Shown: positions 1 to 10,079 of the stretch, one piece after another
Numbering within the stretch: position 1 is the first letter of the stretch
Layout: each line of letters begins with the position of its first letter
Assembly (NCBI GenBank): GCA_019245455.1
Contig: JAFARM010000167.1
Location: forward strand, 1-16,289
DNA: 16,289 nt
Direction of reading: 5' to 3'
DNA from: Sphingomonadaceae bacterium
GTDB taxonomy: Bacteria; Pseudomonadota; Alphaproteobacteria; Sphingomonadales; Sphingomonadaceae
Program-made: the position numbers and the translations under genes
Notes under the pieces: model-generated
The model's database searches: none
The model's input: the letters and a program-made list of their open reading frames with translations, nothing else
Told to the model about the DNA's origin: nothing

Positions 1-1977
1 ACCGCCCTGTGATGCCCGTTGAAACAGAGCGCCGTCATCCTGGCGCAGGCCAGGATCCACGTCTCCGCCTGTCGACATTGCGGAGGCTTGGATGCTGGCC
101 TGCACCAGCATGACTCCGTTGGGGGAAGGGGTGTTCTCATCCTCGACCCAAACGTCGCCGACGATCCACGGCAGCGGATAGGCGTGCGCGTCGGGGCGGA
201 GCGGGAAGTCGTCGTTGCCGTAGAAGTGCGTCCAGGCGATGCCGCCGTGCTCGGTCGCCCAGTAGCTGTTGATGTACTGGCGCGTGACGTGCTCCATGCC
301 GAACGCCTGCACGGCGGGGCTGGTCGGCTCGGCGCAGAAGGTGGCGACGCGAAGGCGCGACAGGTCGTAGCGGCGGATGTCGTGCAGGTTCTGCGCGTCG
401 GCCATGACGAACTTGAGGAACGTCACGCCGGCCTTGAAGATCGTCACGCCGTGCCGCTCGATACTCGCGGCGAAGCGCCCGGCGTGGGGAAAGACCGGCG
501 CGCCCTCGCACATGACGGTCGTCACGCGGCAGGTCAGCGCGGCGGAGAACATATAGCTCTGGCCGGTGATCCAGCCCGGATCGGCGACGACGTACATCAC
601 GTCGCCGGGCCGCGCGTCGAAGGCGACCGGCATCGTCGCGGCGACGCCGGCCGTGTAGCCGCCGTGGACGTGGACGACGCCCTTGGGCTTGCCCGTCGAG
701 CCGCTGGTGTAGATGACGAACATCGGAAACTCGGCGTCGACGGCGAGCGGGCGCGACAGGCTCCACACCGCGCGGACGAAGTCGGCGTCGGGCAGCGCCA
801 GCAGCTCGGCCTCGGTCGCGACGCCCGCCGCCGCGCACAGCCGCTTGCCAGTGGCGTCGGTCAGCTCGTGGCTCCAAACATCGCGCTCGCCGCGCCAGAC
901 GATGTCGGGCAGGCCGACGTGGCGAACGACGATCACCTTGTCGACGCGCGGCGGCGTGGCGACGAGCGCCTCGGCCACCGCGATGCGGATGCGCGCGGCG
1001 GCGGCGGCGTCGAGGCCGCTCTGCCCGAGTTCGGCGAGCGCGCGGCCGACGCCGCGCATGACGTCGCTGCGCTCGACCGTGACCTCGCCGGTAAGCGTCG
1101 CCGCCACCGCTGCGTCGATCGCGGCTATCGTCTCCGGGTCGAGATCAAGCCCTGCAAGCCGCTCCGATACGATCCGCTTCGCCGCCGCCACCGGCGTGTA
1201 GTTGTCGAGCGCGGGGTCGGTGTAGGCGGTCTTGAAGGCGAAGACCTGCGCGTTGCGGTAGCCGCCGTCGGCGGTGACGACGACGCGCGCGCCAGCGTCG
1301 TCGATGCGGTCGCTCAAGGTCTTGTCGGAGAAGCCGCCGAACACGGGGGTGTAGATAATCCCCAGCCGCTTCGCCGCCTCGGTCCAGTACAGCTGTGCCG
1401 GGATCGACGGCATATTGAGCGCGATGCGGTCGCCGGCCTTCAGCCCCAGCTCTTCGAGCGCCAGCGCGCACTTGGCGACCTTGAGCATCAGCGCCTTGCG
1501 GCTGACCGAGTAGCAGTCGACCGGCGCGCCGCGGCCATTGTCGGCGGCCATGTCCCAGCGGTCGCCCTCGAAGATCAGCGCCGTCTCCGCCCCGTGGCCG
1601 GCGAGCACATGGACGTCGACCTCGGCCATGCAGCCGTTCGTCCGGCCCCCGCTGAACCACTTGAAGAAGGGTGCGTCACTCGCGTCGAAGGCGGTCGTCC
1701 AGGGGGCGAAGTCGGCCGGCAGGTTCGGGGTGACGGGCGCGCCGGTGGCGGCGTCCCAGCCGTGCCAGCCGTCGCCCAGATCGCGCAGCCACGCCCCGTT
1801 TGCGCCGATCTCGCGCACGAACCAGGGAATGCGCCGGGCCGTGGCGGCATGATAGCTTCCCGGATCAGCCAGCACCGCGGCGCGCGCGGCGTCCCAGTCG
1901 GCACGGCTTCGGATCGGGTTGGCGATCGGGGACGGGACCGGTGCCGTGGGCTCGGTGGCGGCGCGGGCGGCAGTCAC
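1..1977 (-). CDS. Trifunctional propionyl-CoA synthase, N-terminal ligase part (partial, 3' end off window)
   Basis: The frame is open from a GTG at 1977 to the left edge (659 codons). GGGGAG sits 5 bases before the GTG, and no better ATG exists upstream. It is an AMP-forming acyl-CoA ligase: WFSGG near the N-terminus, YTSGSTGKPKG at residues 423-433, DPGWITGQSY, and YWATEHGG at 572-579. Unlike ordinary Acs/PrpE, it has an extra stretch of roughly 90 residues (about 260-350, including VERSDVMRGVG) between the N-terminal region and the P-loop. From memory, this and the following RPDAHAYPLPW...GDVW are hallmarks of propionyl-CoA synthase, which fuses a 3-hydroxypropionate-CoA ligase to enoyl-CoA hydratase and acrylyl-CoA reductase domains. 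Those later domains and the ligase's small C-terminal domain with its catalytic Lys lie outside the window, so trifunctionality is inferred. Residues 622-648 are encoded by a palindromic repeat. A stand-alone ligase of the same family is the alternative. Confidence 0.75.
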   Translation of the reverse strand, partial: MTAARAATEPTAPVPSPIANPIRSRADWDAARAAVLADPGSYHAATARRIPWFVREIGANGAWLRDLGDGWHGWDAATGAPVTPNLPADFAPWTTAFDASDAPFFKWFSGGRTNGCMAEVDVHVLAGHGAETALIFEGDRWDMAADNGRGAPVDCYSVSRKALMLKVAKCALALEELGLKAGDRIALNMPSIPAQLYWTEAAKRLGIIYTPVFGGFSDKTLSDRIDDAGARVVVTADGGYRNAQVFAFKTAYTDPALDNYTPVAAAKRIVSERLAGLDLDPETIAAIDAAVAATLTGEVTVERSDVMRGVGRALAELGQSGLDAAAAARIRIAVAEALVATPPRVDKVIVVRHVGLPDIVWRGERDVWSHELTDATGKRLCAAAGVATEAELLALPDADFVRAVWSLSRPLAVDAEFPMFVIYTSGSTGKPKGVVHVHGGYTAGVAATMPVAFDARPGDVMYVVADPGWITGQSYMFSAALTCRVTTVMCEGAPVFPHAGRFAASIERHGVTIFKAGVTFLKFVMADAQNLHDIRRYDLSRLRVATFCAEPTSPAVQAFGMEHVTRQYINSYWATEHGGIAWTHFYGNDDFPLRPDAHAYPLPWIVGDVWVEDENTPSPNGVMLVQASIQASAMSTGGDVDPGLRQDDGALFQRASQGG
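34..114. repeat. 81-bp palindromic element inside the propionyl-CoA synthase gene
   Basis: The segment begins GTCATCCTGG and ends CCAGCATGAC. Its reverse complement aligns over the full length with few differences, so it is one long imperfect inverted repeat centred on GTCGAC (71-76). Each arm has its own hairpin (CCTGG...CCAGG at the left, GCTGG...CCAGC at the right), and CTCCGC/GCGGAG forms an inner stem. The length is 27 codons and the minus-strand reading frame passes through without a stop, encoding residues 622-648 of the ligase (ending DPGLRQDD). It resembles the dispersed GTCATCC/GGATGAC repeats of sphingomonad genomes, and the element at 4947-5072 has the same outer ends. Confidence 0.85.
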
Positions 1978-2072
1978 GGCAACTCCCCGGTTCGTCTATG
2001 TCCCGCGTCCCGGCTCGGGTGCAGGTTTGTTACTGGTGCGATGCTGGCACGGGGTGCCGCCGGCCGACAAGC

Positions 2073-2101
2073 AAAAAGGGCGGAGGCCGAAGCCCCCGCC
2101 C
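2073..2101 (-). terminator. Rho-independent terminator of the PEPxxWA gene
   Basis: On the minus strand a 10-bp stem (GGGCGGGGGC with GCCTCCGCCC, one G-U pair) closes a UUCG tetraloop and is followed by five T. It lies 26 bases past the stop of the PEPxxWA gene and separates that gene from the ligase gene. Confidence 0.85.
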
Positions 2102-2126
2102 TGCAATGCGGCGCAACCGGATCGGG

Positions 2127-2930
2127 TCAGGCCGCGACGACGCGTGCCTCGCGGCGGCGAACCGCCCCGCCGACCAGGCCGAAGCCGGCCAGCATCAGCG
2201 CCCAGGTCGCCGGCTCCGGCACGGCGCCGGGGAACGATCCGGGGCTCAGCGGCACGTCGGTGCCGGTGCCCTTGGTCAGGAAGTGGCCAACCGTGTGGTT
2301 GTCGGATTCGTATCCCCCGACCTGCGGGTTCTCGGCAAAGACCACCTTGTCGAACGGCCGGTCGTTGCTGAAGAAGTCGAGGAAGATGTACGGCTCGCCG
2401 CTGTTGTTGTGGAGGAACGAGGGGTTGGGATTGCCGTAGTAGTTGGCGGCGTCGGCGTGGCTGTTGACCGCGGCGATGACGTCGCTGGGATCGAAGGTGA
2501 ACAGCAGGCGGCCCTTGCTGTAGAACGTCACCTGATTGCCGCGATCGAGCGCCGACAGCCAATAGCCGAAGTAGTTGACGCCGTGCGGCAGCGTCGACGA
2601 CAGGTCGAGCGAGTATCCAGTGTTGCTGAACGTCACCGGATACTGGCCGGTACCGCCGGCCCCGCCATACTGATCGGCCGGCAGGATGCGCGTGTCGGCG
2701 CTGTAGGTGCCTGTGATGCTGCCCCCGGTGCCGAAGTCGGTGGTGAAGCCGCCGAAGCCGAGCGGACGGCTCTCGAACGTCTCGACACCGCCGACGGAGA
2801 AGGTCGCGGTCGTGTTCTGGACGCCCACAGCCTCTGATTCATAGCGCACGGCGAACGGCAGCGTGGCACTGGCGGCACCGCCGACGGACAGCGCGACCGC
2901 CATCGCCACAAGGCGAAGTGTAACATTCAT
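2127..2930 (-). CDS. PEPxxWA-CTERM sorted exported protein
   Basis: The protein has 267 aa. The ATG at 2930 is chosen because GGGGAT lies 8 bases upstream and a signal peptide follows directly (MNVTLRLVAMAVALSVGGA, cleavage near ASA). An in-frame ATG 15 codons further upstream would bury that signal. The C-terminus carries VPEPATWA at about residues 236-243, then a hydrophobic helix (LMLAGFGLVGGAV) and an RRR cluster. This is the tripartite PEP-CTERM signal recognised by exosortase, in the PEPxxWA variant typical of sphingomonads. The mature part is rich in Gly, Ser, Thr and aromatic residues, with no enzymatic motif recognised. Proteins of this class are usually surface or exopolysaccharide-linked; the specific role is unknown. 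The exosortase gene is not in the window. The gene appears monocistronic, with its own terminator. Confidence 0.9.
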   Translation of the reverse strand: MNVTLRLVAMAVALSVGGAASATLPFAVRYESEAVGVQNTTATFSVGGVETFESRPLGFGGFTTDFGTGGSITGTYSADTRILPADQYGGAGGTGQYPVTFSNTGYSLDLSSTLPHGVNYFGYWLSALDRGNQVTFYSKGRLLFTFDPSDVIAAVNSHADAANYYGNPNPSFLHNNSGEPYIFLDFFSNDRPFDKVVFAENPQVGGYESDNHTVGHFLTKGTGTDVPLSPGSFPGAVPEPATWALMLAGFGLVGGAVRRREARVVAA

Positions 2931-3049
2931 TACCGTGATCCCCAATATCGTGCGGCAGCCCCGCGCTGCCTGCACTGCGTGGTCGCTCCTATATCAGGGG
3001 ATCAGGAGCGGCAATGTCTTTTACCTAGCGTTAACTACTTAACTTCCAT
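2931..3049 (-). promoter_or_regulatory. Upstream region of the PEPxxWA gene with two dyads
   Basis: This 119-bp gap is AT-rich for the window near 3011-3050. It contains GTTAA-CTAC-TTAAC (3030-3043), which also reads as a tandem AGTTAA pair on the minus strand. It also holds a 6-bp inverted repeat GCTCCT/AGGAGC (2985-2990 and 3004-3009). The second lacks a T-run, so it is a poor terminator for thpR. A promoter for the PEPxxWA gene must lie here if the gene is monocistronic, but no convincing -35/-10 pair was found. Confidence 0.35.
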
Positions 3050-3574
3050 TTACAGCCGGTAGTCGGCGACCGGCGTGTAGACCGCTGCCGCCCGCGTCAG
3101 ATGGCTCTCGAAGAGCGTGAAGCCGTCGATCGGGAAGGGCGCTGCGGCCGGTCGGCTGGCGATGAAGGCGTCGATCGGGCCGGCGTCGCGTCCGATCCGC
3201 GCCAGCGTGACGTGCGGCACAAAGGCACGCGTGTCGGCCGGCACGCCGGCGCGGCGCAACGCCTGGTCCACCTTGTGGTGCAGCGTCGTCAGCGCCGCTG
3301 CCGGCTCGACGCCGATCCACAGCGCGTGCGGCCGGCCGCGTGTCGCAAAGCTGCCCCTGCGGCCCAGCGTCGCCGCGATCGGCGGGTGGTGCACCTCGGC
3401 CAGGCTGGCGGCGATGTCGCGTGCCAGGTGGCGATCGACCTCGCCGATGAAGCGCAGCGTCATGTGGAGCTGGTCGTCGGCCTGCCACCGCGCCGCCGCC
3501 ACGCCGCCCATTATCGCCAGCAGCGCGTCGCGCACCGCCGGCGGCGGCCGCACCGCGACGAACAGCCGCATCAT
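3050..3574 (-). CDS. thpR: RNA 2',3'-cyclic phosphodiesterase (LigT/ThpR family)
   Basis: The protein has 174 aa, the usual length for this family. It carries the two HxTx motifs of 2H phosphoesterases: HMTLRF at residues 37-42 and HVTLAR near residue 123. Family members open 2',3'-cyclic phosphates on RNA in the cytoplasm; the physiological substrate in bacteria is unclear. The start is MMRLF at 3574 or 3571. The first ATG overlaps the tesA stop (ATGA, 4 bases), so thpR is translationally coupled to tesA and forms the downstream gene of that operon. The start of the protein (RLFVAVRPP) is typical of the family. Confidence 0.93.
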   Translation of the reverse strand: MMRLFVAVRPPPAVRDALLAIMGGVAAARWQADDQLHMTLRFIGEVDRHLARDIAASLAEVHHPPIAATLGRRGSFATRGRPHALWIGVEPAAALTTLHHKVDQALRRAGVPADTRAFVPHVTLARIGRDAGPIDAFIASRPAAAPFPIDGFTLFESHLTRAAAVYTPVADYRL

Positions 3575-4946: not shown

Positions 4947-5072
4947 GTCATCCCCGCGAACGCGGGGACCCATCTCCCGAACCCGGAGCTTTCGTGCTCA
5001 ACCATCCCCTCGCCACGAACCGGCATAACGGGGCGAGGGCGGGAGATGGGGCCCCGCATTCGCGGGGATGAC
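4947..5072. repeat. 126-bp palindromic element between ybbA and ybbP
   Basis: The outer ends are GTCATCC and GGATGAC, as in the element at 34-114. The left hairpin is CCCCGCG-AA-CGCGGGG (4952-4967) and the right is CCCCGC-ATTC-GCGGGG (5052-5067). CATCTCCCG and CGGGAGATG pair across the middle, with CCCTCGCC and GGGCGAGG closer in. It fills most of the 172 bp between ybbA and ybbP, which otherwise holds no gene. Because it lies within the probable operon, its RNA form would be a long hairpin between two cistrons. Confidence 0.85.
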
Positions 5073-8612: not shown

Positions 8613-8616
8613 CATT

Positions 8617-8729
8617 CCTCCCCCACCGGGGGAGGTGGCACGGCGCAGCCGTGACGGAGGGGCACCGCGCGAGCCCTCGGTTCCGGAGCCCCCTCCGGCG
8701 CTTCGCGCCACCTCCCCCGGTGGGGGAGG
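8617..8729. repeat. 113-bp palindromic element between convergent genes
   Basis: The left end is CCTCCCCCACCGGGGGAGG and the right end is CCTCCCCCGGTGGGGGAGG. Inside are CACGGC-GCA-GCCGTG (8639-8653) at the left and GGCGC-TTC-GCGCC (8698-8710) at the right, with GGAGGGG and CCCCCTCC as the inner dyad. It lies between the convergent Bax-inhibitor-1 and isomerase genes, directly after the terminator. The remaining 43 bases to the isomerase stop hold nothing recognisable. Confidence 0.85.
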
Positions 8730-8772
8730 AGCTTCGCGCCGCCACTTCCTGCCACCTCCCGGTGTGAGGGGA

Positions 8773-9357
8773 TCAGGCCGCCGCCGCCTCGACCCAGTCG
8801 AGCCGGTCCTGGCCGAAGTGCATCTCTTGCGCCACGAAGAAGGTCGGCGCGCCGAACACGCCGCGCGCCACCGCGGCGTCGGTCGCCGCCTTCAGCCGTG
8901 CCTTGACCTCCGGGCTGTCGGCGCGGGCGAGTTCGGCGTCGGCGTCGAAGCCGGCGTTCGCCAGCAGCGCACGAACCTCGGCCGGATCGGCCATGTTCCT
9001 GGGATAGTGCCACATCGCGTCGAAGGCGAAGTCGACGAAGCGCATGAAGCGCGGCTCGCCCCGCATCGCCGTCGCGATCCGGAGCAGCGGCAGCGTGTTG
9101 AGCGGGAAGTGCGGGTTCATCGTGAACGGCACCCCGTCGCGCGCGGCGAAGCGGTCGAGGTCGCGCGCCATCCACGCGCCCTTGGCCCCCACCGTCCCCG
9201 GCGGACGGTTGCCGGTCGCCTGCATGATGCCGCCCAGGAAGACCGGGACGTGCTCGACGGACGCCCCCGTGCGGGCGGCGACGCCCTTCAGCCGGCAATG
9301 GGCGAGGTAGCTCGCCGGCGAGACGAAATCGAACAGGAACTCGATAGGCTGCGGCAT
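8773..9357 (-). CDS. 2-hydroxychromene-2-carboxylate isomerase family protein (kappa-GST/DsbA fold)
   Basis: The protein has 194 aa, the normal family length. The ATG at 9357 shares its A with the SDR stop (TGATG), with GGAGA 7 bases upstream inside the SDR gene. An earlier in-frame ATG at 9375 lies before that site and is less likely. The start LFDFVSPASYLA carries the Ser that binds or activates glutathione in this family (Ser13). GVFGAPTFFV at about residues 167-176 has the cis-Pro of the thioredoxin fold. NahD-type members isomerise a naphthalene-pathway intermediate using glutathione; many relatives have other or unknown substrates. It is the last gene of a four-gene overlapping operon, so a role in ring or quinone metabolism or detoxification is plausible but not shown. 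Confidence 0.88.
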   Translation of the reverse strand: MPQPIEFLFDFVSPASYLAHCRLKGVAARTGASVEHVPVFLGGIMQATGNRPPGTVGAKGAWMARDLDRFAARDGVPFTMNPHFPLNTLPLLRIATAMRGEPRFMRFVDFAFDAMWHYPRNMADPAEVRALLANAGFDADAELARADSPEVKARLKAATDAAVARGVFGAPTFFVAQEMHFGQDRLDWVEAAAA

Positions 9358-10079
9358 CAGAAGGTCTCCGCCCACGGCCTGAGGTCGAGCTCGTGGGTCC
9401 AGGCGTCGCGCGGCTGCGTGTGGAGGAACCAGTAGGCGTCGGCGATGTGGTCGGGGTCGAGGATGCCGGCGTGGCTGCGCGCGGCGTAACGGTCGGGGAA
9501 GTTGTCGCGGATGAAGGCGGTGTCGATCGCGCCGTCGACGACGACATGGGCGACGTGGATGCCCTTCGGCCCCAGCTCGCGCGCCATCGACTGCGCCAGC
9601 GCGCGGAGCGCGTGCTTGGCCCCGGCGAAGGCGGCGAAGCCCGCGCCGCCGCGCAGGCTGGCGGTCGCGCCGGTGAACAGGATCGTGCCGGCCCCGCGCG
9701 GGACCATCACCCGCGCCGCCTCGCGCCCCGTCAGGAAGCCGCCGAGCGCGGCAAGCTCCCAGATCTTGCGGTACTTGCGCGCCGTCTCGGCAAGGATCGG
9801 CGAGGGGACGTTGGCCCCGACGTTGAACACGGCGACGGCGATCGGCCCGACCTCGGCCTCGATGCGGTCGACGAGCGCGATCATCGCGTCCTCGTCGCGC
9901 GCGTCGGTCGCCATGGCCACGGCGCGCCCGCCGTCTGCTGCGATCCGCGCGACGAGCGGCTCGAGCGCGGCGGCGGTGCGGCGGACGACGACGGCAGTCA
10001 GCCCTTCGCGCGCGAAGCGCCGGGCGATCGCCCCGCCGGTGGCGTCGCCGGCCCCGACGACCAGGGCGACGCCGGTCAT
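9357..10079 (-). CDS. Atypical short-chain dehydrogenase/reductase (SDR_c10-like, lacks catalytic Tyr)
   Basis: The protein has 240 aa with a Rossmann start (VALVVGAGDATGGAIARRFA) whose Gly motif is incomplete: Ala replaces the middle Gly of TGxxxGxG. The active site is altered. Phe151 and Lys155 (FAGAK) stand where YxxxK is expected, the Ser position about 13 residues before it is Ala138, and the usual vNxxG Asn is replaced (WELAALGGFL). I recall a CDD subgroup, classical SDR subgroup 10, described with exactly Phe for Tyr and an incomplete Gly motif, so this is a family trait rather than decay. It may still bind NAD(P) or a thioester ligand, but ordinary SDR catalysis is doubtful. The start overlaps the MDR stop by four bases (ATGA) and its stop overlaps the isomerase start by one. 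Confidence 0.88.
   Translation of the reverse strand: MTGVALVVGAGDATGGAIARRFAREGLTAVVVRRTAAALEPLVARIAADGGRAVAMATDARDEDAMIALVDRIEAEVGPIAVAVFNVGANVPSPILAETARKYRKIWELAALGGFLTGREAARVMVPRGAGTILFTGATASLRGGAGFAAFAGAKHALRALAQSMARELGPKGIHVAHVVVDGAIDTAFIRDNFPDRYAARSHAGILDPDHIADAYWFLHTQPRDAWTHELDLRPWAETF

Follow-up and report, generated by a model that had tools for sequence, protein, structure and literature searches.

The propionyl-CoA synthase (PCS) gene at the left edge of the analyzed DNA (a stretch of 16,289 nucleotides from a Sphingomonadaceae bacterium, hereafter the window) carries within its open reading frame an 81-bp palindromic dimer of a CGTC-tagged REP, which is read in frame as 27 residues. 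This observation is confirmed. We consider it very probable that the element is a tolerated in-frame insertion into a flexible loop of the PCS protein: an inverted CGTC-tagged REP dimer would have entered a synthetase-domain loop in frame and would have been kept because this loop tolerates 27 extra residues. The peptide is presumably translated as part of an enzyme that should still work, and its retention would reflect tolerance rather than benefit. Our case draws on the element itself, on its family features and reading frame, on empty sites and further occupied PCS genes in relatives, and on the same pattern in other genes. The relevant features of the window are the following:

1..1977, minus strand: 5′ part (synthetase domain) of the PCS gene, GTG start at 1977, assigned by homology
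1..33, minus strand: linker after the insert, GALFQRASQGG by translation, similar to GIVFPRTTPGG of relatives; the contig end comes next
34..114, minus strand: 81-bp inverted dimer of a CGTC-tagged REP palindrome, in-frame translation VMLVQASIQASAMSTGGDVDPGLRQDD, residues 622-648
34..59, plus strand: REP monomer 1, GTCATCCTGGCGCAGGCCAGGATCCA; the preceding C completes a CGTC tag at 33-36
89..114, minus strand: REP monomer 2, GTCATGCTGGTGCAGGCCAGCATCCA in minus-strand reading; the base before GTC is A
115..147, minus strand: linker before the insert, VEDENTPSPNG by translation
4947..5072, no strand assigned: a further dimer of the CGTC REP family, of class A type, located between two same-strand ORFs

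A preliminary description of this DNA had given the element as 81 bp at positions 34-114, free of stop codons in the minus-strand frame and encoding residues 622-648, and all of this holds on re-reading the sequence. The two arms (34-68 and 80-114) flank an 11-nt spacer and show 86% complementarity over 35 nt. CGTC-1 REPs have been described as consisting of a CGTC tag, an 8-bp stem, a 4-nt loop and a CCA tail (Di Nocera et al., 2013; PMC3733652), and monomer 1 is built in just this way (CGTC-ATCCTGGC-GCAG-GCCAGGAT-CCA), in agreement with the pattern of CGTC-tagged REPs at large (a stem of 8-9 bp from AT, a loop of 4-5 nt, and CCA). Monomer 2 ends in AGTC instead of CGTC, and the tag is hence present at only one end of the dimer; arms similar to monomer 2 occur in other copies of the dimer in this genome, and the 5′ tag of published elements is often TGTC or CCTC (Di Nocera et al., 2013). 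The RNA of positions 30-118 folds with -60.4 kcal/mol, compared with a mean of -33.8 kcal/mol for shuffled sequences (z = -8; none of 200 shuffles was as good). This hairpin, together with the multi-copy matches in the genome, rules out a chance palindrome. A known structured RNA was rejected as well, since the window yields no Rfam hit that reaches the gathering score.

The genome from which the window stems (G000) comprises 2.65 Mb in 430 contigs and is 95.2% complete. When it was searched with the window element, at least 71 match rows were obtained at E <= 0.001 (the element itself is included, many copies count twice, once per strand, and scores were computed for 40 of 54 candidates); the best non-self row has an E value of 3.4e-11. 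In 81 sources totaling 436,139 bases, window included, we counted 110 dimers with arms at least 70% complementary, and an enlarged set of 103 sources (506,172 bases, with one overlap of 2.8 kb) contains at least 129 distinct dimers; the high copy number typical of CGTC-tagged REPs is thus present. Two main types can be told apart: class B, to which the window element is similar, is usually 91-92 bp long, and class A (consensus GTCATCCCCGCGAAAGCGGGGACCCAT...) is commonly 72 bp long; lengths of 74 and 110-111 bp are likewise common. The base preceding GTC is T or C in 97 of the 110 dimers at one end and in 89 at the other. The tags lie at the outer ends of the dimers here, and published CGTC REP dimers are predominantly of the HH type (Di Nocera et al., 2013). 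A 72-bp query found matches in all six genomes of the genus (G000, 84 rows; G005, 77; G002, 76; G001, 69; G003, 28; G004, 12; both strands counted and part of the candidates scored). No other dimer among the 110 has a length of 81 bp. The window copy seems to be old or atypical: identity to its best long match elsewhere in G000 is 76%, and 83% of 30 bases agree between its arms, whereas 29 class B copies average 91%.

Matches to the Y1_Tnp domain (PF01797) were absent from G000 at its 95.2% completeness, while 5 of 14 control genomes were positive, and a RAYT-type mobiliser was ruled out on this basis. The dimers hence share the lack of a linked tyrosine transposase that is reported for CGTC REPs (Di Nocera et al., 2013).

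The identity of the host gene was taken from the names of homologous relatives, one of which (P0008) matches chain residues 436-1366 of PDB entry 6eqo; identity of the synthetase part to that of eleven relatives ranges from 79% to 93%. The preliminary description had named the window edge as its main limit. Base 1 of the window is in fact base 1 of contig C427, and the gene can therefore not be read further to the left. Its remaining 3′ part is located on contig C397 of the same genome, which is open over its whole length (bases 1 to 3360); roughly 45-50 residues between C427:1 and C397:1 are unassembled. The dimer lies wholly inside the ORF, is open throughout, and has coding sequence on both sides, that on the far side amounting to only 11 residues in C427.

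The linker that holds the insert could be compared across 87 PCS loci by measuring its length from WATEHGG to GEKGEIVI. A length was obtained for 84 loci (the three others are the window's own contig and two more; two locus pairs share the same linker), and in 83 of them the linker is 168-225 bp long and has no REP peptide; G003 and G005 are among the genomes with an empty site. The sole measured locus with a REP peptide belongs to G002, a member of the same genus; its linker measures 300 bp, and an uninterrupted ORF of 1539 aa covers the insert together with the hydratase and a reductase-like domain. GIVFPRTTPGG-type sequence, to which GALFQRASQGG corresponds, is followed by GEKGEIVI in the relatives. 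Hence, both the length-variable linker and the KGEIVIT-like sequence after it turned out much as the preliminary description had predicted. Among 120 PCS homologues listed (of 6571), four contain the REP-type peptide motif: P0001 (the window protein), P0002, P0003, and P0004. Class A inserts are present in P0002 and P0004 and a class B insert in P0003, classes assigned from proteins alone, with palindromic DNA deduced from the peptides. The five PCS carriers (these four and G002) represent at least two repeat types. The tails of P0002 and P0003 look frameshifted.

An AlphaFold2 model of P0004 (40 sequences; mean pLDDT 64, pTM 0.48) assigns pLDDT values below 50 to residues 372-407, a segment that includes the insert (381-404), and higher confidence to the flanking strands (364-369, 422-424 and 430-435). 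The model fits an insert placed in a disordered loop; the low confidence may also stem from the thin alignment.

In a tree of 26 synthetase-domain sequences truncated ahead of the linker, the window protein is joined with P0002 (support 100/99), whose insert is of the other class; G002 and P0008 fill less than half of the columns. A single clade of the five carriers is rejected (AU p = 0.002), and with it one ancestral PCS insert. The tree calls for at least three changes of insert presence and at least four of insert type, a pattern that recombination within the PCS gene may blur or mimic. Holding the window protein together with P0003 was rejected as well (p = 7.6e-5). Nevertheless, the two may share an insert moved by recombination, since their insert peptides both comprise 27 residues, 15 of which are identical. 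In G004, the part of the PCS gene before the linker (L029/L061) groups with P0004 and the linker resembles that of another clade (P0010-like), a mismatch attributable either to recombination or to a chimeric assembly.

The preliminary description had proposed a search for other in-frame copies in the genome. Such dimers are present in ten conserved genes of G000 besides the PCS gene, in each of which family matches span the dimer or flank it on both sides; with the PCS gene, this makes 12 elements in 11 genes. The ten genes, by locus, are:

L248: PutA, in-frame REP dimer
L265: MetH, in-frame REP dimer
L238: CarB, in-frame REP dimer
L236: ValS, in-frame REP dimer
L230: CoaBC, in-frame REP dimer
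L246: LigD, in-frame REP dimers at two places
L218: PbpC, in-frame REP dimer
L226: XseA, in-frame REP, recognized by the detector as a half-site only
L271: DnaX, in-frame REP dimer
L213: MutY, in-frame REP dimer

Four further through-ORFs were left out of this count: a CrtB-like one with little sequence between element and contig end (L201), the tail of a TatB ORF (L230:3014-3129), one belonging to no family (L220), and the antisense of FeoB (L319, minus strand). The stretches inspected were chosen around matches and some searches were scored in part (40 of 54 and 40 of 145 candidates), so that the intragenic share is not a genome-wide rate. Element-free versions exist for CarB in G001 and G005 and for MetH in G003 and G005. 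The MetH of G002 (L287) has another expansion, which does not look like a REP, at the loop that holds the dimer in G000.

Decorated genes recur in the genus: FeoB and LigD in G002, LigD in G005, and DnaX in all four genomes with a strong dnaX match (G000, G001, G002, G005), the matches in G003 and G004 being weak only. The DnaX element of G002 was missed by the detector and read from the translation, inside a 620-aa open frame; the dnaX match there holds one TAA, which by its coordinates lies upstream of this frame. The first linker of LigD is occupied in G000 and G005, and the second in G000 and G002; our search pattern did not recover linker 2 from G001 or G005. In G001 (L369), linker 1 contains a half-degenerate REP peptide (VIPAKAGTHLPPPD...) that the dimer detector did not recognize, perhaps an in-gene REP decaying in place.

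One alternative is that the insert is beneficial, either because the peptide or its strong mRNA hairpin tunes folding or activity, or because REP peptides have been recruited as linkers. The return of elements to the same linkers (PCS, DnaX in the four strong-match genomes, LigD) speaks for it, as do the RNA hairpin at 30-118 and the nature of the targets: four of the 11 decorated genes (LigD, XseA, MutY, DnaX) serve repair or replication, a fraction to which no background rate was applied, and many intragenic REPs of other species have been noted in replication and repair genes (Di Nocera et al., 2013). However, the PCS linker is hypervariable and carries different repeat types, or none, in close relatives, which fits tolerance; we therefore hold a benefit to be unlikely.

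A second alternative, that the PCS gene is a pseudogene in this strain whose frame is open by luck, draws on how readily these elements stay open. Among the 72-bp dimers (70 combinations of element and strand), 69 are open in phase 0, none in phase 1, and 62 in phase 2, and two of the three phases are mostly open in several dimer length classes; moreover, the PCS gene is only partly assembled. Against this stand the uninterrupted frame over 1977 bp in the window and over all 3360 bp of C397, and the close identity of the synthetase part to that of the relatives, and we judge a pseudogene highly improbable. A repeat-driven misjoin is more improbable still: it is true that 33 bp separate the element from a contig end, and that assemblies often break at repeats in such places, but the residues beyond it are PCS linker in the correct frame, other sequences have REP peptides at the same place, and G005, a genome of only three contigs, has in-frame REPs in LigD and DnaX, which disfavors an assembly artefact.

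All eleven intragenic 72-mers that we found are in phase 0 (VIPAxAGTH...GDD): those of PutA, MetH, ValS, LigD (two), PbpC and DnaX in G000, of LigD, FeoB and DnaX in G002, and of LigD in G005. If shared sites are merged, eight remain, for which the chance of uniform phase 0 is (69/131)^8, or about 0.006, a post hoc figure biased by the fact that some copies were found with the phase-0 peptide as the query. In a search for broken genes, 12 of the 110 dimers turned out to be flanked on either side by coding signal of one and the same strand. In three of these (ValS, PutA, MetH), the upstream frame is open into the element and the same frame continues; in the other nine, the upstream gene terminates at a stop codon of its own, 6-24 bp ahead of the element. 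No gene broken by a frame-shifting REP was found among the 110 dimers, at thresholds that missed most of the intragenic copies counted elsewhere; the search is therefore weak evidence that genes are not broken.

The tolerated insertion that we favor has close precedents. The intragenic CGTC REPs of Di Nocera et al. (2013) share tag, stem, loop, tail, dimeric organization, intragenic siting and lack of a linked transposase with the elements described here; more than half of the inserts within ORFs are dimers or groups, encoding 20-30 residues. The preliminary description had recognized an in-frame palindromic insert in a variable linker, which stands, and had added that it knew of no such case for sphingomonad repeats, a remark that does not hold in view of the sphingomonads E. 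litoralis and S. alaskensis. Intragenic REPs have already been reported in both, with the superfamily not stated, and the tRNA synthetase and TruB cases involve these species among others (Di Nocera et al., 2013). Literature searches on in-frame REPs yielded, by title, no further sphingomonad example, which we regard as weak evidence. The relevant sections of Di Nocera et al. (2013) do not name PCS, nor do they describe several repeat types at one linker, apart from different REPs at about the same recB site in two Xanthomonas species. The type of event is thus already known; what seems new is that PCS is the gene concerned, that repeats of different types have repeatedly occupied one linker, and that so many conserved genes of one lineage are decorated.

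The comparison with Rickettsia palindromic elements (RPEs, the name for the Rickettsia elements) drawn in the preliminary description is apt: RPEs are likewise palindromic and in frame in protein-coding genes, as also summarized in a MITE review (PMC10969869), and RPE-6 and RPE-4 of R. conorii have been equated with CGTC-1 and CGTC-4 REPs (Di Nocera et al., 2013). RPEs sit in genes likely encoding functional proteins, and in vivo expression is reported for RPE-1 proteins (Di Nocera et al., 2013). In contrast, the host here is a GC-rich sphingomonad, and the insert is read from sequence. The Neisseria element dRS3 is a CGTC-1 REP too, but most Neisseria elements are in large clusters (Di Nocera et al., 2013), whereas those considered here are in-frame dimers inside genes.

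A bolder idea, which we regard as doubtful, is that the CGTC REP dimers of this genus are ready-made coding cassettes that repeatedly colonize the same linkers (PCS, DnaX, LigD), perhaps favoring replication and repair genes; if so, a repeat that has no known transposase would continually supply new linker peptides. The idea builds on the length of the commonest type, 72 bp and hence divisible by three, and on the single phase used by the eleven intragenic copies of this length despite a second phase that is open nearly as often. We have at hand a sphingomonad lineage with REP-derived peptides in many conserved proteins and with empty and occupied versions of the same genes in close relatives. 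Such pairs allow one to test, in harmless enzymes, whether the peptides are useful as linkers or are just tolerated junk, and by what route CGTC REPs, which have no known transposase, spread.

Elsewhere in the window, translation suggests that the ORFs flanking the dimer at 4947-5072 encode an ABC ATPase and its permease. Another kind of inverted repeat, TCCTCCCCCACCGGGGGAGGTGGCACG, is located at 8616-8730, close to where the minus-strand ORF at 8773-9375 has its 3′ end; its arms are 96% complementary and separated by 61 nt.
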